Source: Asterochloris sp. CNOR1 (taxonomy: Eukaryota; Chlorophyta; Trebouxiophyceae; Trebouxiales; Trebouxiaceae). Taken from it: DNA of 64,000 nt. How positions within the stretch are numbered: the first letter of the stretch is position 1; each line of letters begins with the position of its first letter. Below the pieces are notes generated by a model. It was not told the DNA's origin. It did no database searches and saw only the letters and a program-made list of their open reading frames with translations. The DNA is taken from positions 2,356,001 to 2,420,000 of the forward strand of contig OZ017755.1 in assembly GCA_963969365.1 (NCBI GenBank). The letters are read 5' to 3'. The translations under genes and the position numbers were made by a program. Shown in pieces: positions 10,501 to 32,300 of the stretch.

Positions 10501-13500
10501 GCAGCTCCAGCTCACCCTCCACGTTACACAACTACCCTGGCACCTGCAGAGGTGAGGACATGCAGGGCTCTCACGAAGCAGTCTCTGCACGCACTGCCTG
10601 GGAATGACCAGCTGCTGCGCAGCTCACCCTGCAGGGCCACCAGCTTTGCCTGGCAACAGCAGATGGTCAAACGCAACAAGCACAGTCAATGCAGGGCAGA
10701 ACATGCGCCCTAAGATGCCTGACAGGGGTCCTGGTGCCTGCAGACATGCAAGTCAGACGTGTGGCTTCTGCGAGCAGAGCAGCTGCTGCCCCACAGCTTC
10801 CCCTGCTCAAACCCTCCACAGCCCAAGGTCTTCCTCTGACAGTGCCATTCTCTGCCTCAGATACAGCCCTCCACGGTGACGCCCCGCCATCTGCTCGAGG
10901 TGAGGCAGTGGTGCCAATCCCACCTGACGATGCCATCCTCTGCCTCGATGATGGCCCGCTGCAGCTCCACCCGCTCCTTGTTGGTCGCCGCCAGCACCCC
11001 GAGCGCGCGCTCCACCCACAGCTCCGTCGCGCTGCCTGCGCTGTCGGCCCGCCCCGCAATCTGCTTGCCGGCGCTCTCCTGGCGCAGCAGCTGGCTGCTG
11101 GCGTTGCTGCCGTCCTGGCGCAGCAGGGGGGGCAGGCTGCAGGTGGGGGCCGCCCTGAAGGCAGGGATGTCTCCGCTGGCGGGGGAGGTCGTGCTGCGCC
11201 CCTGCAAGCACATGTGGGGCATGTCAGGAGCCTGCTTCAGAGTTTGAAAGCATGGCAGGGGACGTCTGCGTTGGTTGGGAAGGAAGCTGTGCCCCTGCAC
11301 AAGACAAGGCTCTCGGAAGCCCCATTGACCCACCTGTTCTGTGGCTGTCCATGTGCACCCAGACCCTGCAGCAGTTGCCCACCAGCAGCCACAGCGTTTC
11401 AGCAATGCCCGCTCGACAGCATCAGCTCACCACCGCACCCAGGCGCGCTTTGAGCTGCCTGTTCTCAGCCTGCAGCGCGTCGATGAGCGCCTGGTACTCC
11501 GCGATGTGCTCCTGCACCGTGCCTGCGTTGCGGCGCACATGCGTCTTGATCTCCTTAGCCTGCAGGCAGGCAGGGACGGTCGTAGAGCCATGTTCAGGAC
11601 CCCAGTGGTCTGTGCCTGGGGCGTGATGAGCCAGACCAGTGGCGGGCTTGGAGGAGGCAGGGCATGTGCGCTGAAGATGGGGAAACAGCTGACCGCAGGC
11701 AATAACACTGCTGCCCTGAGGCAATAGAGGCGTGCTCAGCCTGCAGGTACACAAGGGCAGGGCGGAAAAGTGCGAGCCAGCAGGTAATACAGCGACTGCC
11801 GCTGACGTGGGTGTTAGTCTCCTGGGCCTGCAGGTGGGCAGGAATGGCTGCCCCCAAATATGCAAAAGGCGACTGGCCAGCAGCCAGCGACTTTGCTGCT
11901 GTAGAGGAATCTGGGTCTGCAGGCAGACAGAGGCGAAAAGCACTCGTCATGTGTAGACGAGCAGGCATTGAAGTAGTGGCTGCTCAAGTGGGGGCTTGAT
12001 CGTCTGGACCTGCCTGAGGGCAGGCAGGGATGATGACACGTGAGATGGCACCAGGAGGGTGCAGGGGCAGCAGGGTCAGCCGTGCTGCTGAAGAAAGGCA
12101 GATGATGGGTCCCACCGGGTGGAGGTGGCATGGTAAGTCTCATTTGGAGGATGCCAAGATGAATTCGGGCAGCGTACTCTCATGTCAGTGGGTTGAAACC
12201 AAGTCAGCTCGATTGCTTCATGTTCAATTGCCTACCCGATCAGCATACTTCAGAGTGTTGATGGTGTGGTGGTACTGAGAGCTGGAGGAGGCTACAGTGG
12301 CAATCATGGCTGTCCGAGAGCTGCACAGCAGGAATCAGGGGCAACGTAAGCCAGCTCCCTTCCAAGCCAGGATGCAATCAACCCAGCTGCCTTGCCTGGT
12401 TAGCTGTAAGCCATCATATGTTCTCCGTCCTCACTGGCAGAGCTGTCAGCAGCGATGCATGCAGACATCTTGAGCAGTGGTAAGTCTGGCAAATTCTTGA
12501 GAGCGGCTGCTCAGTTGTCGGCGCACGCACACTAAGGACACCTGCACCTCTCTGGTTCACAGAAACTGCTCAAACACTGCCGCGGTCACATTAGCACCGC
12601 AGCCACGAGGGCAAGGGTAAGGCAGTGGGCCTTCCTCAGGAGGACCTAGCATGGCTCACTTGCCACAGAGGCCGTCCTTGAGCAGGCGGGTGAGCTTGGA
12701 GTTGCGGAAGGGTACAAACACGAAGCCCTTCTTGCGCCGCTTGCCCAGCGCATTTATGCAGTTGGCGAGGGCCAGCAGCGACCTGCAGGCCGCACAGGCC
12801 ATGTCACAGTTTGCCCGGGACTGGGCATGCGTTGGTGCGTTCTGTCTGAGCTTATAAGGAGGACGCCGCCTGGGCTGCAGCACTGTTCCTAGACAGCAGC
12901 AGCCCAGGTGGCAAGCCAAGGCAAAGAGCCAAAGGTGGAGAGTCGCGCATGTGGAGTGCAGGCCAAGACCTTGCCATGGCAGGCGCGCTCAGGCTGGGCA
13001 GCTCAGGGCATGTTTCATACACTCTGCTGTTGGCTCCTGCCAGGGGAACAGCAGCACTGCAGCTCACTTGTTGATGTTGGCGCCATCCTTCAGCTGGCGC
13101 CCGGTGTTGTTTGTCTCGCTGGCCCTCTCACTGCCAGCCAGGTCCACCAGCGACAGCTTGCCAGTGTACACCTACAGCAACACTGGCATGCAGTCATGTG
13201 CTGCTGTTCACTTGCAGGAGCAGCTTGATGATGTGCATGTGAGGCCGTGGTAGCATGCTGCCTTGCATAGCTGACAGCTGCAGCCCAGCCTCCTGTCTAC
13301 TGACCATGCATGCTCTGGGCTGGGCAAGCAGAGCTGCTAGTGATGCAGCAGGCCGCGACTGCCACCCCTCCAAGCACAGCAGGCCTTTGCCAGGGGAGAC
13401 CCTTCTGGCTGTGGCAGCCGCAGCATCACAGCTGTTGCCAGCGTGAAGGCAGCTTGCACGGCCAAACCTGCTTCTGGTAGTGATTCCTGTCGCTGCGGCA

Positions 13501-16500
13501 GACGGTGACTTCCAAGATGGCATGAGAGCGGGACGAGGCTGCATTGGCATCTGTGCTCTCAGTCTTGCGCCGCGAGTTGCCCTCCTGCAGCGTTGTTGAC
13601 AATGTGCTGTGCATGTGCTGACTTCCACTGCTCATACCACGAGCCCCTGCCATGCCTGGCTGCGATGGGGCCAGGCTGAACTGGTGACAGGGCCCAGGAA
13701 GCACGCTGTGCTGGTGGGGCTGACAGCATGACACTGACTGGAGCATCGCAGCAGCATGCTTGCTCATAGCTATATCAGCGACGGCGGCGCAGCCCAGCAG
13801 CCCTCTTGGCATGAGACCTTTCCCTGCAGATGACATGTTGTTCTACCAGCAAACCTCACCTGCAGCAGGGAGAAGATGCGCTCTGCACTCTCCACCTGCA
13901 CCCTGGTCAGCCCTGCCACTATGGCGCCCTGCTCTGGGTCCTCCCTGCAGGACAGAGGTGTTTCTTGAGCCACAGGCACTCGTCGACTGCTGCCCGATGA
14001 CAGAAGCGGGGCCGCCACAGCCTGAAAAGTTGCTGCTCTGCTTCAGGCTGCACGGCGGCGCAAATGCAGCCAACCTCAGCAGCAGAATGGCCTGCCAGAC
14101 TGTCCCCCTTGCTGGTCCAGCCTGGGTTTTGAGGCGCCAGCATCATGCAGCAGGCGTGTCAAGTGACCAGTGAATTTTCATCGATGCTGCTACTTGCCGG
14201 AGGTCCAGGGGACCTGAGTTGGGTTGCAACAGGTCATAGATGACCTCATTGTACACCTCACAGTAGCTGCAGGTCACATCCCACTGCTTGTCCGGCTCGC
14301 GTGCCTGCAGCAGGGCATTATGCTGAAAGGGCAATGTTGACCGTGACTGGGTGAAGGACTGAGTGCCTGCCATGCAAGTCAGAAAGTGCCCATGAGCCAG
14401 CTTTAAGGCATGGTGACAGGTGGCATTAATTGAAAGGTCCTATGCTCTTGGGGCAGGCTGTCTAATTGGGAGCAGCACCAGCTGGCCCAGGGCACCAACG
14501 GAGCTTTGGGCATGTGCCCTGATGAGGGGGTCGAGCCTCTCACCATGTGGGCAAAGATGTCGTTCATGCTGAGCACCATAAGCCCCGGGTCTGTGGGCGT
14601 CCCCACCATGCTGTGCGTCTTGCCTGAGCCTGTGGCGCCATAGGCAAAGATGGTGGCATTCAGGCCTCTCAGCACCCCGGGGATCATGACCTGCAGGCAT
14701 TGGGCAAACACGTGGCTGATCTTCCAATCTTTCTACGGCTCTCAACGTGCTGTGAAAGTCAGACTTTCACATGTCTTCACAAAAGCAGACCTCCTGTGTC
14801 CAGCGACTGTGGACAACACAGAGTTGTCACATAGTACCCTAGCAAAAGGGTTTCTGGGCAGCCAGGCAGATCCCACCTGTTTCCTGGTCTTGAGTGCAGA
14901 CCAGCCAAGGCCACACCTGAGCAGTGCTGCTGAACGATGCATCTTGTCAGGGACAGCAGGCGGCTGTGCTGCCTCCTGTCAACATGAGCTTGCATCCAAG
15001 CACAAGCAGCTGGACCGTGATCCCTGTCTGGCAGAGCAGGCTGCAAGTGCACTGCCCTCCCCATCCCCCGCATTTTGCTGGTGCATGACATCACACAACT
15101 GCACTGCACCCCACCAAATGGCTCCAAGGTGCATGCAGCAACCGTTTTCAAATCCAGAACCTGCCAGTTGCAGCTTAACACCTTGGTGGTGCTGGTGGAC
15201 ACCTCCCAGCTGTCCAGGTGAGAGCCTGCATCTCATGCCGCATCACCGTCAGCAATGCCGCCACACCAAGTCTTCCTCCACTTACATGCACAGCCTCCCT
15301 TGGCACGCTGACGGCGCCCATGCTTGTCGCTCTGGAGCCCAAGACATGCAGGTGCAAGGCATCCTCAGGCACCAGCTGCACACCTTGACGGTGCTGGTCC
15401 ACCACACCATCAGGCTGTGGCGAATTCTGGGTGCAAGCAAGCAGCTTTGCTTGTTGTCACCACCGCCATGTCCCACACCAGCAGTTGCAGCTGCACAGCT
15501 TTGTGGTGCGGGGTGGAAAGCGCGCAACCGTCCAGATGCGAGCGCACAGCCATGGTGCATCATCAGCAGCGTTGCTGCCTCATCACCTCTTTGCACATGT
15601 AGGTTGAACATGTAGACCGTCCCACTGCACTCTGACAGCTCCACTGCCCATTGCAGCAGGCCAGTACAGGGCCGCAGCACCGACAGCATTGACACACCTT
15701 GACAGTGCTGGTGTACAGCGCCCGGTTGTCCAGGTGGGCGTCAAAGGCCTTGTCAAACACATAGCGCCGCTCCCTGGCGGGTGGCACAAAGTCCGCCGTC
15801 CGACGCGTCTGCGGGATCTTAGGCTTCCCATCGTCCTCTGGGTCCATGACCACCACCATCTGCGCAGAAAAGTACAAACTGAGATCAGGCAGGGGCCCTG
15901 GAACACTTAGGCCCTTCACGGGGCTGCTTTTCCGACGTTGCGTGTGGCAGATTGATGTCAGCCTGGCCTGAGGCAGGACGAAGTCAGGCACCTCCTCAGA
16001 CAGGACGGTTGCTTTCCATCCTCCGCTCCATGACCATGGCCATCTGCAGCTGTTTGCGGCAGACACATCTCATCTCAGCCCGCCAGCTCAGAGGGCTTGG
16101 CCCCACTTACATCAGCACCACAGCTCCACCAGGCAGACAAGCTGCATCTCAGCCATCTGATGGGTTCTGCATGCTCCAACACGAGGAAAGAGGAGGGCCT
16201 GCCTGATGTGCTGCCTGAGCTTGCCCTGGCAGCCTTGCCTTCAGCTGCTGTGTCGTTGGTGCCTGCCGACCTGCTGTTGATATCTGATTCCGTGCTCTGC
16301 TGATGTTGAGGCAAGTGGCAATGTCATCAGAGCCACATGACCACAACAGCATGGCAATGGCAGTCATCAAGGCTGCATTTGCTGCACAGACCCCCTCAGT
16401 CCCATTACAGAGGCCCCTACAAACCACGCGGGGCCCAGGTAGCGATGCAGAGGTCGCGACTGAGGCTATGCTGCTGGCAGCTGTAACACCAGCCAGGCAG

Positions 16501-17019
16501 CATTGCCTTTTGCTGCCTCCCCCAGCCAGGCATGGTGGTTCAGTGCCTGCCAACACCAGTCATCTGTGCATTTACCTTCTCATCGATGGTGCGTGTGATG
16601 ACATGGGAGCCCTGCTGCCGCTCCTTGCGGGTCAGTGGGCGACAGCGCACAGCCACCTGCACCGGTTGGTGTGCAAAGCTGAATGCCTGCAGCTTCTGCT
16701 TTGCAGGAGGTGCGACATCATGTCTGCTGGGTACACCATGTGAACGTCTGCTTGAAGACTGGTGGAGCAGCATGCAGCGCTGGGGGCACGCTTACCGTGA
16801 GCGTGGCCTGGGATACACCCTTGCGCTTGAGAACTGAGCTGCAGGGCAAGAATACACAACATGCCAACATAAACTTGAAGTGGCTTGTGTAAAGCATGAT
16901 GCTGTGCATCAAGGCATGCATGCTGCACAGGCTCACGTGAACTGCAGGGACGCATCAAACAGCTCAGCCAGCTCATCATGCTGGCTGGTGTTGAGGGATG
17001 GTCTCTCTTCCTCAGCCAT
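7532..17019 (-). CDS. KIN8A: Kinesin-8 motor protein, KIN-8A type
   Basis: N-terminal kinesin motor of the kinesin-8 family; in other eukaryotes these motors walk to plus ends and limit microtubule length. Exons: 17019-16937, 16838-16796, 16656-16576, 15859-15698, 14690-14544, 14304-14198, 13944-13860, 13584-13468, 13171-13068, 12782-12660, 12320-12236, 11559-11431, 11201-10924, 10378-10246, 10055-9846, 9324-9268, 9000-8871, 8477-8316 and 7827-7532; frames join throughout, giving 843 aa (plant KIN-8A is about 810). Motor motifs: VAVRCRPL, P-loop [37 protein letters not shown], switch I NAASSRSH, switch [24 protein letters not shown]. The neck region has [18 protein letters not shown], followed by coiled-coil segments and [10 protein letters not shown], all as in Arabidopsis KIN-8A. 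The intron after 14198 starts with GC. The C-terminal end is the least certain part. Confidence 0.9.
15175..15425 (-). pseudogene. Decayed copies of kinesin exon 4 end
   Basis: Inside the intron between kinesin exons 4 and 5, two minus-strand segments resemble the last codons and donor site of exon 4. Near 15220-15175 the frame reads [13 protein letters not shown] followed by GTGTTA, and near 15425-15385 [12 protein letters not shown] followed by GTGTGC. The true exon ends [13 protein letters not shown] then GTGTGT. They look like old tandem partial duplications and are not needed for the protein model. Confidence 0.55.
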
Positions 17020-17518
17020 GCTCTGTGCTGGATGTCTCTCTATTGCAGCTGGTAGCTTCGCTGTCAATGTGACAAGAACACTGCATGTGTAATTTGCAAG
17101 CGCAGGCCCATTTCAAAGTTGGCCTGTTCACATAGAGGTTTGGTTGAACAGACCTTAGACGGAGTGTGTTGAAGTGCGAGATGGCATTGGAGTTTGTGGG
17201 TATACCGCGGTACGTACCGCGTGGGCGCCCTTTAACGGCTTCTGTGCAAATGGCTTTCTAGCTATACCAGCCCGAGACGAACCTGGAGGCCATAGCCAGG
17301 CTGACTGCTGATGCCAACATCCATGTGAAGTTCAGCAGCAGGCCGCCCATGGACTCATTACCCTGTGCACCGCACAAGTTAGAGCAAGGCGCTACATATA
17401 CCTTTGTCTGGAGTCCAGACTCAGAAGCCTCATCTTGCAGAGGCGAACGCAGCTGAGACACGATAAATACATCAACCAAAGTGAGCTGTGTGATGTGAGA
17501 GATTGTATCGATGACATT
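17020..17518. other. Kinesin upstream region
   Basis: This stretch lies upstream of the kinesin start and must hold its promoter. A plus-strand open segment starting near 17262 (after TTTCTAG) reads YQPETNLEAIARLTADANIH and looks somewhat protein-like, but neither its start nor its splicing could be fixed, so no gene is called. Confidence 0.3.
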
Positions 17519-17680
17519 AAAACAGCAGTACTCGCCTTTGCGCAGTGGGGATGGCACTGACAGGTTGCAAACGCAGTGGAGCTTGCCACTGGCCAAGCGG
17601 CATCAGTGGAGCTTGCCACTGGCCAAACGGCATCACTGTCAGTGCCATCCCCACTGCGCAAAGGTGATTACTGCTGTTTT
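17519..17680. repeat. 45-bp inverted repeat with 72-nt loop
   Basis: The left arm (17519-17563) and right arm (17636-17680) are reverse complements with two mismatches in 45 bases. The loop carries a 30-base direct repeat (about 17574-17603 and 17604-17633). The right arm, in direct orientation, resembles the end of the exon at 34936-35144 and its donor site (about 35110-35156, roughly 41 of 47 bases by eye). Transcripts from either strand would fold into a long hairpin. Confidence 0.9.
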
Positions 17681-17681
17681 A

Positions 17682-17796
17682 GCGCCTTATGCCAAGCGCA
17701 ATGGTTGTCTCTGCAGAGCACCACAGCCTCCAGCGCCTGCAGCTGCCGGTCCACTGTGGACAGCACTGCCTTCAGTGCTGCTCCAGACCCTAGGGG
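17682..17796 (-). pseudogene. Inverted fragment of the 34936-35144 exon
   Basis: Read on the minus strand, this segment matches the first half of the plus-strand exon near 34947-35060, including the stretch encoding AVLSTVDPQVHALQAVVLC; similarity is about 80% by eye. It continues the displaced copy that forms the adjacent hairpin. It has no splice context of its own and is called a fragment. Confidence 0.7.
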
Positions 17797-19518
17797 ACCA
17801 TGCATTGTCTCCAGTCAGACCTTACACTGTACAACTTGTATATTTTGGCATGCTTTAGGACAGCTGCAATGGTTCACTGTCAGCCCTCTCAGGACTGTTG
17901 ATGCCTGCAAGCCCTTTCAAGCTCATCTGAGCCCGTCTTTGTAGCATTGGTTCAGGTGATGCAAAGTTCAATAAGTGCATTGAAGTCCATAGGTGAAGGA
18001 AGCACACCAAAAGCAGGGTGGCATTGCTGATAAGACCACAAATTGGTGTGGCAGAGTTAACCTCCACACTGGCTGATGCCCTGTAACATGCTGACATGGG
18101 ACGACACCAATTGCAGATAGCTCAGTGTGACACAGTGCTGACACAGGTGCACAACGCCGCTGGGTATGCAGACCCTCACACATGAATTGCTGCAAGCCAT
18201 CTCGCTGCAAACACGCAGTTGGGCCCCTTCTTCCTTTGGCTGGCTGACAGTGCACAGCACCTATCTTAGCAAGACCTGTAAGGGGTGTCGCCAGCTGCTG
18301 CAGCAGCTAGTGACCATGGACATGAACTTGACACTGCTGGACTGCTGGGACCAGGGTGACCTGGTTGCTACTGTCTTGCAGCACCGGAATGGCATTCTGG
18401 AAACCCCTTGTAAGTCCTGCTGCAGCATCAGGTCGGCGCTTATTCATGATCCTGTTATTTGGCGCCGGATCTGCAGATCCTTTTCATAAAGCACAGCACC
18501 TGCAAAAGCTACAGTGTATGAATGTCAGAGCAGCCCGGCAAGAAGCCTGCCTCTGCCATGAACATGCAGGTAAGCCTGCGATTTGCCTGACCCGTCGGCA
18601 ACGGCATGGACCCAACTGACTGCTTGGTCGGCACAGCATAAGGGACTGGCTGGCCCAGAAAGGTTGTCTGAAGCATTCCAGGCTGCACAGCTGGAACACA
18701 GCATGAGCACAGCTTGAGCTATACACCCTGTGCTTTGACTGTGCATCCTGCCATACAGCTGTACAGCCTGCGCAAGACACAAAGCTTGCAGACTGCAAAG
18801 TGGTGCTGGACATTGACCTCAACAACGACGCATTGGCTGCAGCTGCAGGGACGCCAGTCTGAACCAGCAGGGATCTTTTGGTGATTGTCAGGCAGCCCAC
18901 TTGGCACTTCATCTCTGACAACAACAGCATGGACAGCCTGAGGCAGTATGGCTCTCCTCAGGTCTGCCTTAATTGCTTTGGGTTGACTTTCTTTTTTGTT
19001 GCCATCGAAGCTCAGGGGCTCCTGGTGATTGGGTGCTTGTGGCACTGAAACGGCCTGCTGCCACTCTGCTACACGAACACTGCCCAATTGCTGGTCATGA
19101 ATTTTGCATGAATCTTGCACGGTCGCATCATTGCCAGCTCTGCCACATTGAGCTGACACCCATGGCGGGCAGTTTCTGCAAGCTCAGGCGGTGCAGTGCA
19201 GATGTTTGGTGGGCTGTCAGCAGACACCCTTGGCACAGCATGGGGTGTCTGTACACTGTATTAGATGTGCAGAGCTTCCCAGCCAGGTGGGCTGCCTGCA
19301 GACCAGCCCGTAGGACAGCCCAGAGGGGCCCAAGGCCACAGGCACAAATTTACCTTTATGATTCACATGCAGGGGCGGTGCCAGCTGGAAGCTGACTCAC
19401 TAAGGCTGTGATCTGAAGTGCGATCGCAGCAAGCCCACCTTTCAGCACTTTGCTGGAGGGCTGCACCCCCGCCCACTCATGCACCTGCAAGCTTGACATG
19501 CCTCTCTGCCTGACGCAG
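17797..19518. other. Mostly non-coding; weak exon-like segments
   Basis: No confident gene is seen. Two plus-strand segments could be exons: about 18313-18408 (MDMNLTLLDCWDQGDLVATV, donor TTGTAAGT) and 18791-18865 (CKVVLDIDLNNDALAAAAG, ending in TGA). They join in frame, giving a short ending. They might be the 3' end of a small gene or early exons of the large modular gene downstream. Confidence 0.3.
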
Positions 19519-19779
19519 GGTCAAGATGACCTGGGCAACCCTGCATCGTGTAGTGATGAGACCGCAGACCCCTTCGCCATCACTGATGCACCTCTGCTGG
19601 TTGAGGAGTTGGAAGGAGGTGCTTGGCCAGACATTTGGGTGTCAGCAGCCTCAAGGCAGCCTCACGCGGCAGCCCAGGCCAGTAACGAGCAGGTGGAGGG
19701 GCGTTGCAGGGCTGACCGGCGACCCAGGAAGGTTGTCAGGCCAAAGCGCCCTGGGGGCAGGCAGGCGCCTGCGCTGCAG
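19519..19779 (+). CDS. Exon, acidic then basic segment, modular gene 5' part
   Basis: An 87-codon open exon bounded by GACGCAG| and CTGCAG|GTGCGC, phase 0 at both ends like the later exons of the modular gene. The first half is acidic (SDETADPFAITDAPLLVEEL) and the second half basic (RRPRKVVRPKRPGGR), which could be a nuclear localisation signal. No domain is recognised. It probably belongs to the gene that continues to 36617, but the link rests only on strand, phase and composition. Confidence 0.4.
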
Positions 19780-21295
19780 GTGCGCCTCCTAATGGTCTGT
19801 TGCAGCCTAGCTTGTTGGACAAAACTGGCCTGCCTCCTACTTGCCTTTGCTAAAGAGATTGCATGGCAGGCCATCATGGTTTTCTGACTCAGACCATCAT
19901 GGGTCCCTGACTCAGATCCACATCATTCCCCTAGGCCTAGGCCCCTTCAGAAGTGTGTGCCTTGCCCAGCAGACCTGCTAGCCGCTAGCCGCTATCCACA
20001 GCTCCAGGGCAGCCAGGCGGTTGTGGCCCCTTTGCAGACTCCTCAGCACCTGTTGTTGCACTGCAGCTGGGTCGTGCAGCCTCATACCTGTGCAGGACCC
20101 TTAGCCATCTCTTCACTCCTGCACTGCAGCTGAGCGATGCAGGCTTATGATATTCAAGGACCCTGAGTGGTTTCTTAGGCTGCTGGGGGCCCTCAGCTGT
20201 CGCCTGTGTCCTTACCGTTGCTGGTCTATTCGAATCAGTGCTGCCGTGCAGGAGCAGAAGGAGCTGGACAACACCGTGTGGGTCTTTGCCCAGAGATGCC
20301 TGCCTGACCCACCACCCCTGTACAGCAACCCTGTGCTGGGAGCACCAGCGCCGTGCCACAGTCAGGGTCTCGGGGTGCGCTGCCTTGCATGTCAGTGCTC
20401 TGAGCTTGTTTAGGCTCTCTGAGTGCCTGACCTGGACAGTCCTGCAGCAGCTGGCCGGCAGCACTCCCTGCTTGTCTTATCGAACGGCTGCAGGAAGGCA
20501 GCAGCATCACGTCTCCATGCATGACAGCTATGCCACATTGTGTGCTGGCCGCGCAGCAGTACCAGGACAACCCCCTGCGATACATCCGTCATGCATCCCT
20601 CATGCTGCACCTGCACAACAGCCAGCTCTTTGCTCCAACAGTGCACAAGGCTTCCCCTGCAGCTTGACCTGACAGACAAGTCACTGCCACAATTACAGTC
20701 TACATTCCTCAAGCAGCCTGGCAGCACCATCATGAAAGGCTTGCACGAAAGGCAGCCCTGCATTCAGCCCCGGGTGCCTGCCTCACCTGGTGTGTCATGT
20801 TTGATCTTGGCGATCTCCAGCCCTGCCCTGCGTCTCTAAACGCGGGAGTTGCCAGTGCTGAGGGCCTTTGTCCTGATGGTCATTTGCAGCTTGATGTCCA
20901 GGGGGACTGGTCTGCCTCCCGCTTGCCTCTGCTGGGGACTATTACTTGGCTTAGGCCATGGTGGCTCCCTGACCCAGACCTCCATCTGTTCCTGGCCTGC
21001 GCCCCTCAAACGTGTGTGATTTGCCAAGCAGACTTGCCAGCTACCCCGCACAGCTGCAGTGCAGCCAGCTTGGTTGTGGCCCCCTTGGCAGACTCCTCAG
21101 CACCTGTTGTTGCTTTGCAGCTGGGTCGTGCCAGCTTGTACCTGTGTAGGACCCTCAGCCATCTCTCGTCCTCTGCACTGCAGCTGGGCAATGCAGGCTG
21201 ATCTAGGCGCAGGACCCTGGGTTGTTCCTAGGGCCGTTGGAGGCCATCAGCTGTACAGCAACTGGTTTGTTTAGGTTTATTTATGTGCCATGCAG

Positions 21296-21536
21296 GCCGC
21301 TCAGCTAACAGCTGACCAGGAGGACTTGACAGATGATGACTGTGGCTACGATGGGTTCCTGGCAGGACTGCAGGCCGAGCTGAGCGACGATGAGTCTGCC
21401 CTTGCCGATCTCCCAGCAGACCTAAAGGCCAGCTCAACACCACCAGCGGCAACCCAATGGACGCGCACCCTGCCTGAGCTGCCATCTGCATCCAGCAGCC
21501 CTGTGCTGGGAGCACCAGCGCCGTGCCACAGTCAGG
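21296..21536 (+). CDS. Exon, acidic module of modular gene
   Basis: Open exon after TGCCATGCAG|, with the acidic run DQEDLTDDDCGYDGFLAGL and then ELSDDESALADL. Its layout (Gln-Leu-Thr-Ala start, later a Gly-Leu-x-Ala segment) resembles the exon modules at 24207 and 26029, so it may be an older copy of them. The donor is uncertain: GTCTCG at 21537 is weak and an earlier GT is possible. No known domain was recognised. Confidence 0.4.
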
Positions 21537-22496
21537 GTCTCGGGGTGCGCTGCCTGCATGTCAGTGTTATGAGCTTGTGTTCAGGCTCTGGGTGCCTAAT
21601 CGAGAGAGCTCTTATGGGTTAGGCCTGGCTGCAGCATGTGTGTTTGACTGTAGGCCGTCCCCTGTTGCTGCTGATTGGGGTGTTGGCCAACAGGGAAAGG
21701 CATCTCCATGGCACAACAGGACTGGTCCTGCACGCTACCAGTGCTGGACAGCACATTGCACTGCTGGTGGAGGGTGCAGATACTGAAAAGGGCAGCCTGG
21801 CCCAGCTCAGGTTCTGCACAGTCCATCTACAGTGCAGCCGTGCTCAAGCCAAACTGGGGTGCTGAGCATCTGGCCTACGCGGTGGCTCAGTCTATGGCAG
21901 CTTTTGCAGAAGCAGATGGTCCTACTGTTGGCCAAATGTGAATAATCGATAGACTTAAAAGTGCGCTGCGCATTGCTCATCTGCTGCACGCTGGAAGCTG
22001 CGCGTGTGAGGGGGGCTCTGGATGAGTCTAGGATGCTACTGCCACTGTTTTGCCTGAAAGAGGTCCCCAGAGGTGCCACCTCCTGTGTCAGCTCCCGGGA
22101 TCTGCTCATGTGTCGAGCCATGCTGCACCGCAGATGGACTGCGCAGACACTGAGAAGGGCCAGCCTGGCCCAGCTCAGTGTCAGCAGTGCTTTCTGCTGT
22201 GCAACTTTGCTTCGTCTGAGGGGAGGTGCTGAACCTCTGGCCTAGGCGGTGGCTCAGTTTAGTGGCAGTTATGCAGAAGCGTTTATATATATATATCACT
22301 CCTGTCCGAACATGTTGCGTGGCAGGAGCAGGTGCTGCTGGAGTCGTGGGCCTCACCTGATTGGGCAAGGTTTGGAACCACACACACAAGCCCGTCATGT
22401 CACGCTGGCTGCCTGCCCCACCTGGTGCACGGCATGATCTTGGCAACCTGAACACTGCACTGCGTCTCGAAGGCAACCGTCATGTCAAGGAGGCCA

Positions 22497-22768
22497 CCGA
22501 GATGGGGTCCTCAGCGGCACAGCTAAAATGGCCAGCTTTGCCGCTGAGGCCCCATTGTTGGTGGCCTTCAGGACTCTGGGAACCCAGCATAGGCAGACAG
22601 GTCCTGCTCCCAGGAGACACATGCACCCTGCCTTGGCACCCAGAGCTTGTGTGGCACGGGTGCGGTGCTCCCAGCATGGGCTGTTGGCTGGCGCTGGCAG
22701 CCCAAGCGCTGCCAAGTTGCCAGCATCAGCCACCAGCCCCGTGCTGGGAACACCGCAGGTGTGGACCA
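22497..22768. repeat. Inverted copy of the exon module, forming a hairpin
   Basis: On the minus strand, 22580-22497 resembles the coding module at 24240-24310 (the part encoding GLKATNIGLPAAELAIS). Further on, about 22651-22683 is an inverted match of the module's GTGCTGGGAGCACC block, while 22733-22768 carries the same block in direct orientation, so the two can pair. Similarity is around 80% by eye. Confidence 0.55.
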
Positions 22769-23112
22769 GTCAGGCTCTGGGGTTGCACTGCTCTGTGTGT
22801 CAGTCTTCAGAGCCTGTGTTCAGGGCTCTGGGTGCCTGACCGGGGTAGCCTGGCTCAGAGCTTATACGCAGGCTGAGTGAGATGCCCCAGTCGTGCGTGA
22901 CGTCACAGCCTGCAGCAGCCGAGTGACAGCAGTGCGCCTTGCTGCAGCATGGCAGCTGCCTGTCCTGCAGACCTCTCTTGTGGGTGGGCCTGGCTGCCGC
23001 ATGTGTGTTTTGAACCGTCGACTGTCCGTTTCTGCTGCTGAGTGCGTTGCTGGCCTCTGTGCTGTCCAGCAGTTAAGACCTTCGGGACCACACCTTGTTT
23101 GCAATGGAGCTG

Positions 23113-23190
23113 CCTTCCCCTGTTGGCCCTGCAGGGCACCTTACACCCCAAAAAGGGTGTAGGGTGCCCTGCAGGGCCAAAAGGGGAAGG
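23113..23190. repeat. 36-bp near-perfect hairpin, 6-nt loop
   Basis: Arms 23113-23148 and 23155-23190 are reverse complements apart from about two positions, separated by CAAAAA. The inner stem contains GGCCCTGCAGGGCACC against GGTGCCCTGCAGGGCC in relaxed form. It lies in a presumed intron of duplication copy 1; the equivalent place in copy 2 (near 24960-25000) keeps only the left-arm sequence. Confidence 0.92.
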
Positions 23191-23433
23191 GTAGGCAGAT
23201 GTCAGATCTGAAGCAGACCTGTTGGCCCTTTTGGGGGCTCATGCTGGCATCCTGACCTCATTGCTCAGCAGTGAACTGTTGCTGGCACATTCAGCCACTG
23301 TGGCAGAAGTGTCTAGTCACCCTTACTCGGGGATGATGCTGCAGCTGCTTCTGCAGTGCAGACCCTCAAGTGAGCATCGCTCAGCCCCCAGGCCTCAGCA
23401 CCTCAGCTTATCTTGAGCAGTGCTGCACTGCAG

Positions 23434-24473
23434 GGGGAGGGAGGTATGGATGTGTGCCAGGCAGGAGCGGGCACCTTAGGGGACCTCCTGAGGGCAAATG
23501 GAGCTGGGAACCTCCTGGCCCCTTTCGAAGGGGCCCCTGCACCCCCAGCTGCCAGCCTGCAGCAGGTGAGCAATAGCAGCAGCACTCTACGTGCCTGCCT
23601 CACCTGGTTGGGCAGAAGCAGGTACGGCTAGTGTTGTGAGCACCTCACCTGATCAGGCAGGGCCGTATACATAAGCCCTGCATGTCCCCCTGGCTGCCTG
23701 TCCCACCTGGTGCACGGCTGGCTCTTGGCAATCTTCAGCACTGCTCTGCGTCTCTGACGGCGACAGAGTTGCTGATGCTAAGGGCCTCTGTCCGATGGCC
23801 TGTCGCAGCCTGATGTCGGGGGGGGGATGGACTGGCTTGCCTCCTGCTTGCCTCGCCCAGGGATGGCTGCGAGGTTTCAGGACATCGTGGTCCGGTGACT
23901 CAGACCATACGGTTCCTCCCAGGCCTGGGCCCCTCAATATCTGTGCCTTGCCAGACTCACCAGCGACACTGTGAAGCTCCAGTGCAGCCCGCTTCAATTG
24001 GGCCCCTCGGCAGACTCCTCACCACCTGTTCTTGCACTACAGCTGGGCCGTGCAGCCTCATTCCTGTGCAGGACCCTCAGCCACCTCTCAACATCTGCAC
24101 TGCAGCTGGCAGGACCCTGAGTTGTTTCTTGGGCCGCTGGAGGCCCCAAGCTGCCTCCTGCGCTCTCACTGAGGCTGGCCTGTGTAACATCTGTGCTGCC
24201 CTGCAGGCCCTTCAGGTAACAGCAGAGCAGCCCGCCTTCTCTGAGTTTTTTAGAGGCCTGAAGGCCACCAACATCGGGCTCCCAGCAGCAGAGCTGGCCA
24301 TCTCGGCAGTCACTGCTGGGAATGAGGCGCCGCAAGGCTGGACCCCTCAGGCTGTGGGGGTGCGCTGGCTGCAGGTGTTGCCCTGGCTACAGGACATGAA
24401 CATGCCTGATTCTACCGACCCAATCATCAAGCCGGAGGACATCTCCTTTGGCACCCCCACCAGTACCCAGAAG
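23434..24473 (+). CDS. Exon modules of duplication copy 1
   Basis: Two exons, 23434-23565 (44 codons) and 24207-24473 (89 codons), both phase 0 at each end with GCAG acceptors and GTGAGC donors. The first encodes MDVCQAGAGTLGDLLRANG and an Ala/Pro-rich end; the second has TAEQPAFSEF, GLKATNIGLPAAELAISAV and the acidic MNMPDSTDPIIKPEDIS. Codons 50-56 of the second exon (24354-24374, VGVRWLQ) correspond to the two ends of an intron that is still present in copy 2. Function is unknown. Confidence 0.5.
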
Positions 24474-25227
24474 GTGAGCACTTGCGCCAGACGTGAGGGG
24501 GCGGGGGGCGGTGCACCAAGTCGGCTGCCTCGACGTGAGTCTCACAAGGGTTGTGTGCTCCCGCTGGCAGCCAGCAGCAGGTGAGGTGACAGCAACGGCG
24601 CCTGGCTGCCCAGCGCAGCCCAAGGAGGGGGTATGCGCAGCAGCAGTGCATGGTTTGACACCCTACAGCGGGCCTGAAGCAGCAGCTGCCTTGCGTTGGG
24701 GGCTCTGTGCTGCGGGAACGGTGGGCGCTGCAATCGTGTGTGACGTCAGGGCATTCAGCAGTTGAGTGACAGCAGTGCGCCTTGCTGCAGCATGGGCAGG
24801 TGCCTGCCCTCACGGAGTCATCCTGTGGGTGGGCCTCGCTGCGGAACTTGTGTTTGAAACAATGACTGTCCCCTGTTGCTGCTGAGTGGGGCGTTGGCCT
24901 CTGTGCTGTCCAGCGCTTGTGACATGCAGGACCACTGTTGTTGTGCTGTGGACATGCCTCCCCCTGTTGGCCCTGCATGGCACTCTTGCCAGGCCAGCAG
25001 GTGTCAGATGCTCGCAGACCTCTTGGCCTCATCGGGAGCTCGTGCTGGCAATCCCTGCCCTTGGTTTTCAGCAGGGAAGTCATGTTCCCGCATGCAGTTA
25101 GTGTGGCTGAAGGGGCTGGTCAACCTCACAAGGAGCATCTGCTTCTGCAGTGCTGCCCCTTATGTGGGCATCACTCAGCCCCAGGGCTTCTGCACCCCAG
25201 CTTTTCTTGAGCAAGGCTGCACCGCAG

Positions 25228-26175
25228 GTGGAGGTAGACATGGACGTGTGCCAGGCAGGAGAGCCCACCTTTGGGGATTTCCTGAGAGCGAATGGGGCTG
25301 GGAACCTCCTTGCCTCTTTTGAAGGGGCCCCTGCACCCGCAGCTGCCAGCCTGCAGCAGGTGAGCAACAGCAGCAACACCATGGTTGATTGTCTCACCTG
25401 CTTGGGCAGAAGCAGGTACGGCTAGAGTTGTGAGCCTTAGCTGATCAGGCAGGGCTTTGCATGGAAGGCAGCTTTGCAGCAACGGCAGCGTGCCCCACCT
25501 GGTACAGGTCAGGCCTGATCCTGGCGACCTTCAGCACTGCCCTGTGCACTTGACAGCACAAAGTCGCTGGCGTTGAGGGCCTTCGTCCTGATGGTCTGTT
25601 GCAGCCTGTTGTCAGAAGGGGACTGGCCTGCCTCATGCTTGCCTCTGCTGGGTAATGGGTTCAGGCCATGGGTTAAGGCTGACGTGGTCTGCTGACTCAG
25701 TCCATCGCGGTTCCTCCCAGGCCTGGGCCGCTCAAACCTGTGTGCCTTGCCAAGCAGACTTGCAGCCACCCTTCACAGCTCCAGTGCAGCCAGCTTGGTT
25801 GTGGGCCCTGGGCAGACTGCTCAGCACCTGTTCTTGCACTGCAGCTGGATCGTGCCAGGTCGTTCCTGTGCAGGACCCTCAGCCATCTCTGGATGTCTGA
25901 CTGCAGCTGGGCGAAGCAGGCTCATGAGGTGCAGGACCCTATGTTGTTTTCAAGGCCGCTGAGGGCCCCCAGCTGCCACCTGCTTCCTTACTGAGGCTGG
26001 CCTGTGCAACATCTGTGCTGCCCTGCAGGCCCTTCAGGTGACCGCGGAGCAGCCTGCCTTCTCTGAATTCCCCGGAGGCCTGAAGGCCACCAACGTCGGG
26101 CTCCCAGCGGCAGAGCTGGCCCTCTCGGCAGTCACTGCAGGGAATGAGGCGCCGCCAGGCTGGAACCCTCAGGCT
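25228..26175 (+). CDS. Exon modules of duplication copy 2
   Basis: Exons 25228-25359 (44 codons, MDVCQAGEPTFGDFLRANG) and 26029-26175 (49 codons, TAEQPAFSEFPGGLKATNV) mirror the copy 1 exons and keep phase 0 borders. The donor after 26175 is GCT|GTGGGG. The next exon in the chain starts at 26351. Open frames and matching borders suggest these are still coding. Substitutions between copies are mostly conservative, which hints at retained protein constraint, but no ratio was calculated. Confidence 0.5.
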
Positions 26176-26350
26176 GTGGGGGTGCGCTGCCCTGCATGTC
26201 AATTGTCAGAGCTTGATAGCCAGCTCGGGTGTCTGCCCTGGAGAGCCTGACTCAGAGCTCACGCACAGGCTGAACCCAATGAGGTGCCCTAGCTCGGCCC
26301 CATGAAGCCTGGACTCCCTGCTGACACACCTGACAACTGTCTGGCTGCAG

Positions 26351-29300
26351 GTGGTGCCCTGGCTACCCGACATGGACATGCCTGACTCCACCGACCCCAT
26401 CATCAAGCTGGAGGGTACCCCCACTAGTGACCAGAAGGTGAGCACTTGGGGCAGACGCCGGGGGGGCGGGTAACTGTGCACCAAGTCGGCTGTCTCAATA
26501 CAAGGGCTGTGTGCTCCTGCTGCCAGCCAGCAGCAGGTGAGGTGACAGCAACGGCACCTGGCTGCCCAACGCAGCCCCGGAAGGGGTGGTGCACAGCAGG
26601 TATGCATGGTACGACACCCTTCAGCGGGCCTGGAGCAGCAGCTGCCTTGCGTGGGGGTCAACTGCCTCACATGGTTGGGCTGTGGTTATCTGCCTCACAT
26701 CATCAGACACCAGCAGGCACACTTGGGGAGCTGGTGTGTGCCTGATGAGAGCAGCTCTGCAGCGCAGCTCAGGCCCCACACACACTGGGCTGCTTGGACC
26801 CAGGGCTCTGCACCACGGTTTGACGATTCTGCCTAGGGACCCACCCCTGACTCCCCCGGCTGTTGGAATCGCGCAGCCCCTTCCTAATGGTACCCGCAGC
26901 ATCTGCAGGGCTGCTGCACAGCCCATCAAGCTGAGGGTCCAGCGCCCAAGGATTGTGAGACATTGGCCTAGTGTGGACAGGGCCTTGTGCTGTTGCAAGC
27001 GGGTGCTAGCGCCCAACCCTCACCTTCCTCACAAGCCTCAGCAGACTGATATTGGGCACAATGTACTGTGCTGGATTCACAGGTGCTTGGCAGTCCAGGC
27101 TCATGACAGTACCTGCTGTGCTGTGATGGCAGGTCAAATCTGGCAGGCACCCTTTTGACCTCTCCCCGCTGCCACTGCTGCCTGCAGGAGCCCGTTGAGC
27201 CAGGGGCTGCTGCCACCAGCACAATGCAGCAGCAGGCAGACGACGCTGCTAGCCTTCACACATTCCCAGCCTGGATTTCACCAGCGCAGCAGGCAGCAGC
27301 ACAGCTGTCGGCAGGGCCACTTGGCACCCCTGCTCTGCCTGGGCAGGAATCGTGGCTGTCAGGCAATGCTGCTGCTGCTGATGTTGCGTGGGGGCAGGGC
27401 TCATCCCCTGCCCTGCATGGTCACCCAGGTGGGGGCCTGGCCGAGGCGGCAGCCGCAGAGCAGGGCCAGGGCCACATCCCTGCCCTGCATGGGTCGGGGA
27501 CACAGGCCACAGCAGGCGGCGATGCTAGCCCTCATGCGTTTTTAGCCTGGACTTTACCAGCGCAGCAGGCAGCAGCCTCGCTGTCAGCAGGGCAAAGTTG
27601 CGCCCCTGCTCTGCCTGGGCAGGAATTGTGGCTTTCGGGCAGTGCTGCTGCTGCTAGTGTTGCAGGGGGCCAGAGCCTTATCCCTGCCCTGCATGGGTCA
27701 GCGACAGAGGCCACAGCAGGCGGCGTTGCTAGCCCTCACGCGTTTTCAGCCTGGACTTTACCAGCGCAGCAGGCAGCAGCACCGCTGTCGGCAGGGCAAG
27801 GTGGCATCCCTGCTCTGCCTGGGCAGCAATTGTGGCTGTCGGGCAACACTGCTGCTGCTGATGCTGCATGGGGCCAGGGCCTCATCCCTGCCCTCCGCGG
27901 GACGGGGACAGAGGCCACAGCCAGCAGCATCTTCACAGCACAGCCGGCTGGCACCAGTGGCACCCCTGCACAGGGTGTGGAGGGGCCATTTGGGTTTGGC
28001 GCTGGAGCAGCAGGCCCTCCAGCCCGCAGCCGCTGGAATAAGAAAGGGCCCAGGCTGAGCGGCAGGGGCTGTGGGTGGCAACAGCCTGGCGCAAGCAGCC
28101 AATTTCTCTCTGCTGCGCCTAAGGGGGATGGCGGTGGGGCAGCCCCTGCCGCCATTGGGGTGTGGGTGCCCCAGGCCCAGAATGGTGGCAGCGCTGCAGA
28201 CCCTGCCACCCTCAACACTGACATTGAGATCCAGCAGGTCAGCCCGTAATGTGTCTGGGTGCAGCTGGCAGATTCTTGTGTGACTTTGTGTAATGGCACG
28301 CTGGCTTGGTGGCCTCATGCTTTGTGGCAGGCAACGGCTGCTCAGTTGTGGTGGCTGTTCTCTACATTGCTCTCTGTGCTTCAGCATTGCCCCTGCTGGT
28401 TGCCATGACATAAAAGTGCCTGCCGATGACCAGGCCTGCACTTGGCCTGCAGGTGCCGCATGAGTAAAATCACTCACAAATCCCACAAGCCACTGCTGCT
28501 GCTGCGCCTGCAGGAACCTGCCTGCGGAGGTCAGCAGCTAGGTGTCCCAGCACAGGGCCTAGCCAGCGAAGCCCAGCAGCAGGCAGGCACTGCCACCCCT
28601 GGCTCAGGCTGGGTGCCTGTGGTACCAAGCACAGCTGATGCAGTGCCCGGCACAAGGTTCAGCCAGGGGTTTGCAGCAGGCGCCGGAACTGCCCCATCAG
28701 CTGCTTGTCCAGGACTTTTCAAGTTCAAGCTGCCTGGCAGAACTGGCAGCCACAGTCTGGTCAACAACGACCATGGGGAGGGGGCTCCTATGGCGCCCAG
28801 CAGCAATGCTGCTGCTGGTCGGGGTGCAGAGCAGCCTGCTGGTCAGAGCCCCGCTGGATCTGCCCAGGCCAGCACTGTGGCTCCTGCTGCTGAACAGGCA
28901 GGCAGCCCCAGTCTGGTCATCAACGACCATGGGGAGGCTGCTCCCATGGCGCCCAGCAGCCATGCTGCCGCTGGTCGGGGTGCAGAGCAGCCTGCTGGTC
29001 AGAACCCCGCTGGATCTGCCCAGGCCAGCACTCTGGCTCCTGCTGCTGAACAGGCAGGCAGCCCCAGTCTGGTCATCAACGACCATGGGGAGGCTGCTCC
29101 CATGGCGCCCAGCAGCAATGCTGCCGCTGGTCGGGGTGCCGAGCAGCCTGCTGGTCAGAACCCCGCTGGATCTGCCCAGGCCACCACTTCGGTTCCTGCT
29201 GCAGAACAGGCTGGCAGCTCATCAGGAGTGGTCAAGTTGGTCTGTGCCCTGACCAACAAGGGCAAGCAGCCAGCACTCGCAGCAGCAGCAGCTGCTGCTG

Positions 29301-32300
29301 GACAGGCAGCACCTGTGCGCGACCCAAGCGTGCCGGGACAGGCAGCACCTGTGCGCGACCCAAGCGTGCCGGTGCAGGGCGGTGCTGAGCCTGCTGAGGC
29401 TGACTCTGCCAATCAGCAGCAGCCACCGGTCATGGCAGATTGTGCTTCTGCTGACCCATCAGATGCCCTGGCAGCCGCGCCAGCTGCCAGGGTGGGGAAG
29501 GGGAGCTCTGCTGAGTTCCAGGAGGGAGCGCACAGTGGCACTCAGGGGCCGGCCATGGCTTGCTCGGTGTCCTGCTCTGGTCTGCCTGCTGCCACTCAAG
29601 GCGGTGCCCCTTCAGCAGCATCGGCCGCTGGTGCCACTCAAAGCAGCGTCCCTGTCGCTCAGGGATCTAAGGAGGCAGATGCAGACAATGAGACCACCAC
29701 CACAGCATCCAAAGTGAGCAACTGGCATAGACTTAAATTTGCGAGTTTGCTGGGTACACAACCTTGCACAGCAGCCTGCCTGGCATCTGGGCCTGGCTTG
29801 CTCTGCGGGCACCCAATTCAATTCTGCAGGAGCATAGAGTTCCAGCATCTGGTGGGTAAAACCACTGGCCAGAGGGCCTGCACTGCCAACTTCCGGGAGC
29901 CTGCAGTGCAGCGCTTCGCCTCGCTATGGTCTGATTGGTTGCAGGACTGACCGGACGGCAGCACAGAGTGCACAAGCAGCTGCAGTGTACAAACAGCCAG
30001 AGGGCAGCATTGTCTGCGGCAGTGCAATGCCTCACTCATCTCTGGCATTGATGGCTGCAGGCTCGCGGAGCTCATAGCTCAGTCGTGAGCGCTGCCAGCC
30101 AGGTGAAAGCCCCTATGCAGTCTGCCGCGGTGCCCGCTCACACACAGGCTGGGCAGGGCACTCCCAGCCTGACAGCAGCCCCCTCACAGCCTGCTGGGGT
30201 GCCAGGCCTGACTGATGCTGGGGGTGCAGCTGACCAGACAGGCCTTGCCAGGCAGCCTGGTGAGGGGCAGAGGTCGGCCAAGGGCAGGCCAGCAGCCCCC
30301 TCGCAGCCTGCTGAGGGCCCTGGCACAGCCAAAGAGGCAGACGCAGTGGAGCAGGCAGGCCCCAGCGGGCAGGGCTCTGCTGAGGCCACCGGGGTTGACC
30401 AGGACTGCACCAGCATCCTGCAGCGTGCTGAGGCTGAAAACGCCAGGGAGGCAGAGGCCACAGCACAGAAGGTGGCAGACGTGGCCAGCCAGGCCATGCC
30501 CGCTGTGGCGCAGGGCCTGGCGCAGGCCCTGCCAGCCATAGCGCAGCCCTTGGTGACGGCCCTGGCAGATGCTGTGCTGCAGGGCCTGACGCAGGCCCTC
30601 CCAGCCATGGCGCAGTCCCTGGTGACGGCCCTGGCAGAGGCTGTGGTGCAGGCCAACCTGCAGGCAGCAGCTGCCGCCCGCATTGAGCATGCCCAGGCCG
30701 AGGCCAAGGCTGTTTGTGAGGCAGCTCAGGTGGGCATGTGCATCTGCTGATTGCATATCTGTGCCACTCAGTGGCAGTTCTGGAGACAGCGTCCTGTGGG
30801 GCCTGCGGCATCTGTGTCTGTAATGCAGCATGGCTCAGGGCTGGACCAGCTCCCCACTCAGACGTCGCCCAAGCAAAGGCCAAGCTTGTTCGTGAGGTTG
30901 GCATGTGCTTCTGCTGGTGGGGAATGTTGCTGAGTGTCAGTCTGGGTTGCGTCATGTTTAGCCAGCTCCATCTGAACACCCCAAGCTGGCAACATCTGCT
31001 CATCACATCAGACGGGTCATGCCTTTGCTCTGGTGCATGCCTTCATGCTAGCTCAGCGCTGAAAGCAGGGTACCGGTGCTGCCTGCAGCTTTGTCTCGAT
31101 CAGCGTGACACAACTGGGCATTTACGAGGCCGGTCCTTGCTTGATCACGAAAACATTCAAGGGGTTTGCTGCATGGCCTGCTGCCGTGCTGTGCACTTCT
31201 GGACAGTGCTGTGGTTGAACCCTCTGCTGTGTACTTTTTGGTACAAGCTGCTGCGGCAGGCTTTCCAAAAGTACTGTCTTGGACCCAATTGGCCGCACTC
31301 TGGCCTCCATGCAACCTGACGAGAGTGCCCACTGGCGTCGCCTGCAGGCTGCCTGTGCCACAGCCACTCAAGATCAGCACCTGAGGGCGGCGCAAGCAGA
31401 CGCCGAGCAGCTCCGGCGCAACCTTGCAGACATGCAGGCAGAGAGAGACACAGCCCTCAACAATCTGAAGCAGGCTCAGGCTCACACACGGCAGCTGCAG
31501 GAGGAACACATTGCAAAGCTGGCTGCCAAGGACGCTGCTGTGAGTAGCATGGAGGCAGAGAGGGAGACAGCCAACAACAGTCTGAAGCAGGCTCAGGCTC
31601 ACACACGGCAGCTACAGGAGGAACACATTGCAGAGCTGGCTGCCAAGGACGCTGCTATGAGTAGCCTGGAGGCAGAGAGGGACACAGCCCTCAACAGCCT
31701 GGAGCAGGCGCAGGCTCAGTTACGGCAGCTGCAGCAGGACCAAGATACAATGCTGACTGCCAGGGACACTGCTGTGAAGAGCCTGGAGGACATGCAGGCA
31801 GAGAGGGTCACAGCCCTCAACAGCCTGAAAGCAGCAGAAACCCACCTTGGCAGCTTCAAAGCAAAGCTGCACAAGTTTGGTGCTGCTTGGAGCCCCCATG
31901 GGCCCCTGCCGCAGCAGCCCCCTGCTGAGGAGACTGCAGGGCATGAGGCAGGTGCAGCCCAGGCAGCGCTGCCTCAGCAGCAGGCGTACCCGGCTGTCCC
32001 TGGCCCGCAGAAGTTGCAGGGCCAGCCAGCTGCAGGCCCCGCTGCTGCTGCCGGCTCCGAGGAGCCTGCGCAGCAGGCATCAAGCCCTGAACGTGCTGCT
32101 GGGGGCACCCAGGCCGGCCCATATGCAAGCTCTGTCGCCGTCGCAGGCTCCAAGAAACCTCTGCAGCAGGCAGCATCTGGAGCTGCAGAAGGTGCAGCTC
32201 AGAGCCCACAGCAGCCTACAGTGGTTGCTGCCCCCTGGCCTCCTGGGAGTAGGCAGCAGATGGCAGCCTGCACTCAGCCTCCGCCAGCCACCGCACAGCC

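Follow-up and report, generated by a model that had tools for sequence, protein, structure and literature searches.

A hairpin in a 64-kb stretch of the genome of the green alga Asterochloris sp. CNOR1 raises the question of how a structure resembling an exon located 17 kb away came about and whether it would serve as a source of small RNAs. The original prediction had described arms at positions 17519-17563 and 17636-17680 of this stretch, which in its entirety is referred to as the window, with two mismatches in 45 pairs, and had proposed a young small-RNA locus that targets the related gene. These arms were borne out in an inverted-repeat search, which places them at 17518-17563 and 17636-17681 with a length of 46 nt each, 44 of 46 positions paired and a loop of 72 nt. 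As detailed in the following, we regard the locus as a noncoding, rearranged pseudogene fragment that was turned into a hairpin by two mutational steps and that most likely has no dedicated function, a reading to which we assign a probability of about 80%.

The prominence of the hairpin is evident from a seed-and-extend scan for arms separated by up to 600 nt, which covered 274 kb consisting of the 64-kb window and 21 sampled stretches of 10 kb. With a score of 40, the structure at 17518-17681 ranks first in this sample, followed by hairpins scoring 30, 22 and 22, and first-order Markov controls of 822 kb per run reached maximum scores of 16 and 17. RNA folds of the region 17480-17720 yield z-scores of –9.99 and –10.84 for the two strands, with none of 200 shuffled sequences being equally stable and, in combination with the small number of arm mismatches, the region has the features of a predicted stem-loop precursor. 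Although this stability would be in line with a role in the generation of small RNAs, it is expected of any long inverted repeat.

Alignment of the locus with the region of the distant exon shows the relation between the two places in the form of three blocks with identities of 82% (minus), 88% (plus) and 74% (minus orientation), which were obtained with blastn and which, together with the four-point model described below, define a rearranged minus-strand copy of 34958-35196 at 17484-17786. The first block comprises the part at 17682-17786 that has retained its original orientation on the minus strand and that matches the exon at 35062-34958 in 86 of 105 positions (82%, with E-values between 2e-24 and 1e-21 in searches). 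An inverted exon copy had been predicted for 17682-17796, of which this part is well defined, whereas the stretch 17786-17796 is marginal and gapped. The second block (17621-17676 vs 35102-35157, 49/56 identical, 88%) crosses the splice donor at 35145 and confirms the proposed match of the right arm to the end of the exon and its donor. The right arm itself (17636-17681, plus strand) constitutes a flipped second copy of 35117-35162 and is identical to the gene at 38 of 46 sites. Three features had so far escaped attention. The first is the third block at 17484-17563, in which the left arm, together with the flank outside of it, corresponds in minus orientation to the end of the exon and about 50 nt of intron (59/80, 74%). 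Within this block, the left arm (17518-17563) is a minus-strand copy of 35117-35162 in the original orientation of the fragment, with 37 of 46 sites identical to the gene and a GC at the position of the donor GT, and the adjacent stretch 17484-17517 (minus strand) is a copy of the intron sequence 35163-35196 past the donor (22/34). The second is the loop (17564-17635, plus strand), which also consists of exon sequence with a sense opposite to the flanking copy, corresponding to a flipped version of about 35065-35116, and the third is a tandem duplication of 30 nt that enlarges this loop and whose two units (17574-17603 and 17604-17633) are 97% identical.

We take the exon as probable source and the locus as copy because the open reading frame and the splice borders are found in the former and are missing from the latter, where the frame is broken by the flip and by a stop codon. 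The status of the source as coding exon (34936-35144, plus strand) is backed by its open frame bordered by AG and GT, whereas scans of codon usage did not detect a signal at this position. Since the training sets of these scans were small and shrank on iteration (from 92 to 10 and from 129 to 29 frames), this result provides weak evidence against an exon. Searches against Pfam, which covered all six frames of 16000-20000 and the three plus frames of 29000-38500, did not identify any family at E-values up to 0.1, and NCBIfam returned a match at chance level only. When joined, the predicted exons of the source gene (33416-35897) bear a faint resemblance to the core of a DEAD-box helicase in degenerate form. 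This resemblance, which emerges only upon joining, amounts to 13.7 bits for the Pfam family DEAD, below its cut-off of 26 bits, and to an E-value of 0.16 at best for a match to DBP5, which is preceded by two designed repeat proteins whose E-values are lower. At positions that we presume to be those of the helicase motifs, the letters in the predicted exons are altered. A relation of the neighboring predicted exons at 33416-33898 to the source exons was considered and found to be unsupported (E = 0.25).

For a broader view, we searched the genome (56.4 Mb in 21 contigs, with counts of matches being lower bounds), in which the chlorophyll a/b-binding protein family is represented by 31 matches, as fits a photosynthetic eukaryote. 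Among the listed matches obtained with the locus, the DNA of the exon and its protein sequence as queries, there was no third copy of either locus or exon, and the flanks of the locus matched only themselves, again with counts as lower bounds. Because neither locus nor flanks have other matches in the genome, we see no family of transposons, and we reject an origin from a transposable element such as a MITE, for which multiple copies would be expected, since the matches found for the locus are confined to the locus itself and the source exon. Copying at the level of RNA is likewise rejected in view of the intron sequence in the fragment, which points to a transfer from DNA instead of spliced RNA. 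A wider duplication was suggested by a match between 18136-18259 and 35412-35290, whose score of 39.7 bits barely exceeds the best of 29 control stretches (38.3) and which is out of order, and this candidate was dismissed. Within the window, no Rfam family reached its gathering score and no tRNA was found.

How the blocks are ordered and oriented, which the alignments show directly, constrains the event that created the hairpin. Products predicted by different rearrangements were derived from the sequence of the gene and compared with the locus by alignment. A four-point model gave the best fit, which proceeds in forward direction to 35062, reverses from 35162 to 35065 and continues forward from 35117, with a score of 150 compared to 100.5 for a plain inversion, 77.5 for a colinear copy and 72.5 for a simple foldback, where an initial guess of the four points was improved by a local search, whereas the rivals were evaluated on coarser grids with fewer free points. 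In this model, the segment 35063-35162 is flipped in place and its terminal 46 bp (35117-35162) are present both ways. The flip starts after 35062 and ends at 35063-35065, so that its two ends lie no more than 0-2 bp apart, and one of the junctions has 3 bp (CTG) in common. Such a product would result either from a template switch during replication or from an inversion with one staggered break. The four-point product with its reverse-complemented segment between forward flanks has the hallmarks of the former, and the in-place flip with an inverted duplicate of 46 bp at its side those of the latter, with the 30-nt tandem in the loop being an additional feature. Either of the two may apply, where a return to within 0-2 bp is expected for an inversion but would be fortuitous if a template switch were free in its choice of position.

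Both mechanisms have precedents. Template switching, as described by Monttinen and Loytynoja (2022, PMC8794818), copies a reverse-complemented segment between four switch points and can create a long stem in a single event, and in-place flips of loops by this process are reported there as very rare. The locus at 17484-17786 shares the four-point reverse-complement shape of these hairpins. For the described cases, which concern mammalian microRNAs and rRNA, the ancestral state was obtained from phylogenies, whereas for the Asterochloris locus, which is known from its DNA sequence alone, a source exon elsewhere in its own genome takes this role. For inversions with staggered breaks, the inversions 2h and 2q of Drosophila mojavensis are reported to be accompanied by duplicated segments with sizes of about 1-7 kb (PMC3355041). 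As in our case, formerly single-copy DNA ended up as inverted copies that flank the flipped segment. The scale differs, with the Drosophila events being chromosomal inversions and the algal event involving a flip of about 100 bp and a duplication of 46 bp.

With the unflipped arrangement still present in the source exon, the succession of events becomes readable, where it should be kept in mind that this exon is compared as a source within the same genome and not as orthologous locus prior to the event. In a three-way comparison of both arms with the gene at 46 sites, 37 are identical in all three sequences, seven are equal in both arms but differ from the gene, one is changed in the left arm only and one differs in all three. 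No site was found where the left arm agrees with the exon against the right arm (0/46). Because the seven differences from the exon are common to both arms, the comparison shows that the arms, as judged from these sites, descend from one already diverged fragment and not from two separate copies of the exon. The shared differences therefore suggest that the gene fragment came first and that the local event that formed the hairpin took place later. The idea of a hairpin made from an inverted exon copy holds insofar as the structure derives from an exon-related fragment, but it would not have originated by inverted duplication directly from the proposed target gene. The predicted youth of the hairpin is in agreement with the divergence of its parts, since fragment and exon differ at 19 of 105 sites (Jukes-Cantor distance 0.21) and the arms at 2 of 46 (0.045), with a binomial probability of 0.006 for so few differences under the assumption of arms that are equally old as the fragment. 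This arm divergence would reflect a minimum age only, if correction or selection had later preserved the identity of the arms, and correction of arms against each other has been described for inverted repeats in yeast (PMC8604942). The arms (2/46) and the tandem duplication in the loop (1/30) are equally diverged (Fisher P = 1), and nothing thus shows a special protection of the arms. For fragment and exon, a dN/dS ratio of 0.62 obtained from 34 codons only does not settle neutrality.

The differences between the two arms also bear on the trivial explanation that the structure is a foldback artefact of the assembly or the sequencing library. Foldback chimeras generate inverted copies, but their arms should be identical, whereas those of the locus differ at two sites. 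The tandem repeat in the loop has diverged as well, and both flanks were found once in the genome search. We consequently consider an artefact as extremely improbable.

Taken together, the locus would have been formed in two steps. The first would have copied a genomic segment of about 240 bp (34958-35196), which encompasses the end of the exon and part of the intron, to the opposite strand at a distance of 17 kb, where it came to lie upstream of a kinesin gene with a spacing of about 0.5 kb. In the second, which would have followed the divergence of the copies, the segment equivalent to 35063-35162 would have been flipped in place with its 46-bp end (35117-35162) kept both ways, so that a flipped loop is now bordered by an arm of 46 nt on either side. 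The tandem duplication of 30 nt (17574-17633) would have enlarged this loop either later or together with the flip.

The landing site puts the hairpin in proximity to the start of the neighboring gene (16576-17019, minus strand), which is predicted to begin with an ATG at 17019, contains an early motor-domain exon at 16656-16576 and has its body toward lower coordinates. Its assignment as a kinesin motor gene at 11001-17019 is based on the Pfam family Kinesin, for which each of the three minus-strand frames of 11001-17050 scores above the cut-off. A hairpin located in the promoter or the 5' untranslated region of this gene might act in cis to influence its expression or the local chromatin, as would be compatible with a proposed start codon at a distance of about 0.5 kb on the minus strand. 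This proposal draws on position alone, and a young insertion that is found in a single copy would hardly be expected to be indispensable, which makes such a role very unlikely in our assessment.

The most specific functional proposal envisages that the locus is a young source of small RNAs, where a transcript extending over 17518-17681 would fold into a stem of 46 bp, which is cut by Dicer to silence the source gene. Components of a suitable machinery are predicted in the genome. Searches with profiles detected Piwi domains at two loci, with five of six matches exceeding the cut-off, and a locus on C11 where a distance of about 2.7 kb separates two matches to the RNase III domain, which is consistent with the presence of Argonaute-like and Dicer-like genes. 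The assignment of Dicer would nevertheless be an inference, as a search of the plus frames over the 10 kb that surround this RNase III pair did not detect a PAZ, helicase or RNA-binding domain at E-values up to 0.01. Small RNAs from the stem would be poor at targeting the source gene, contrary to what had been anticipated. In an ungapped comparison with the region 34936-35300, in which G:U pairs were not scored separately, every 21-mer that is wholly contained in the stem carries at least three mismatches to the exon, and a lone 21-mer with two mismatches spans the border between exon and intron. In plants, near-perfect complementarity is required for miRNAs to direct cleavage (PMC7994812). 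Perfect antisense 21-mers were found at the border between stem and loop on the minus strand (two 21-mers within 17627-17648), which speaks for an action on the source gene, and outside of the stem at 17748-17775 on the plus strand. The lack of any match at an Rfam gathering score throughout the window also weighs against a small-RNA locus. Lack of conservation alone would not exclude a miRNA because those of Chlamydomonas are reported as not conserved, with many that prevail under certain conditions seemingly originating from fairly long hairpins (PMC5511227). Compared to plant miRNA genes that arose by inverted duplication, as described in the same source, the locus is alike in its relation to a predicted protein-coding gene and in the presence of RNAi-type genes, and it differs in that its arms stem from a diverged fragment and in the poor complementarity of its stem to the source exon. 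On balance, we regard a small-RNA locus as unlikely. A further reading, in which one mutation would have turned the gene fragment into a Dicer-ready stem and minus-strand products of the stem-loop border (17627-17648) would now act on the source gene, appears quite unlikely. The hairpin would in that case be a silencing locus captured at its origin, with the pre-event arrangement having persisted 17 kb away.

In a search of the whole genome for two 21-letter patterns of the stem with up to three mismatches, we found 14 and 11 places, of which in each case two are the arms and one is the source gene, with the best others showing two mismatches. The reversed patterns used as controls gave one and zero places. 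The pattern at 17636-17656 has 11 places besides the arms and the source exon, compared to one for its reversed version.

The window contains a second hairpin at 23113-23190 (34 of 36 positions paired, 6-nt loop), which resides inside a duplicated stretch. The region 19787-26657 harbors large diverged duplications, such as 22888-24376 and 24731-26199 with 75% identity. In the paralogous stretch near 24957-24997, the first arm of this hairpin is present and most of the second (42 nt) is missing. The simpler reading would be that the inverted copy was gained after the duplication, with a loss in the paralog as alternative. Because this paralog is without most of the second arm, hairpin-forming events may recur in this region. 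Three hairpins scoring at least 20 are found in the window and one in the other 210 kb, numbers from which no rate is drawn since the window was not randomly chosen.

Our results thus describe a well-preserved hairpin of a known kind, whose proposed two-step mutational history can be read within a single genome and which, as far as can be judged from its letters, bears no clear sign of function. They illustrate that the resemblance of a hairpin to a gene does not imply its origin from this gene by inverted duplication. If small RNAs were present, the locus would provide a clean case of the conversion of DNA into a silencing hairpin by a one-step mutation, and if they were absent, it would caution against the annotation of hairpins as miRNA genes on the grounds of their similarity to a gene.
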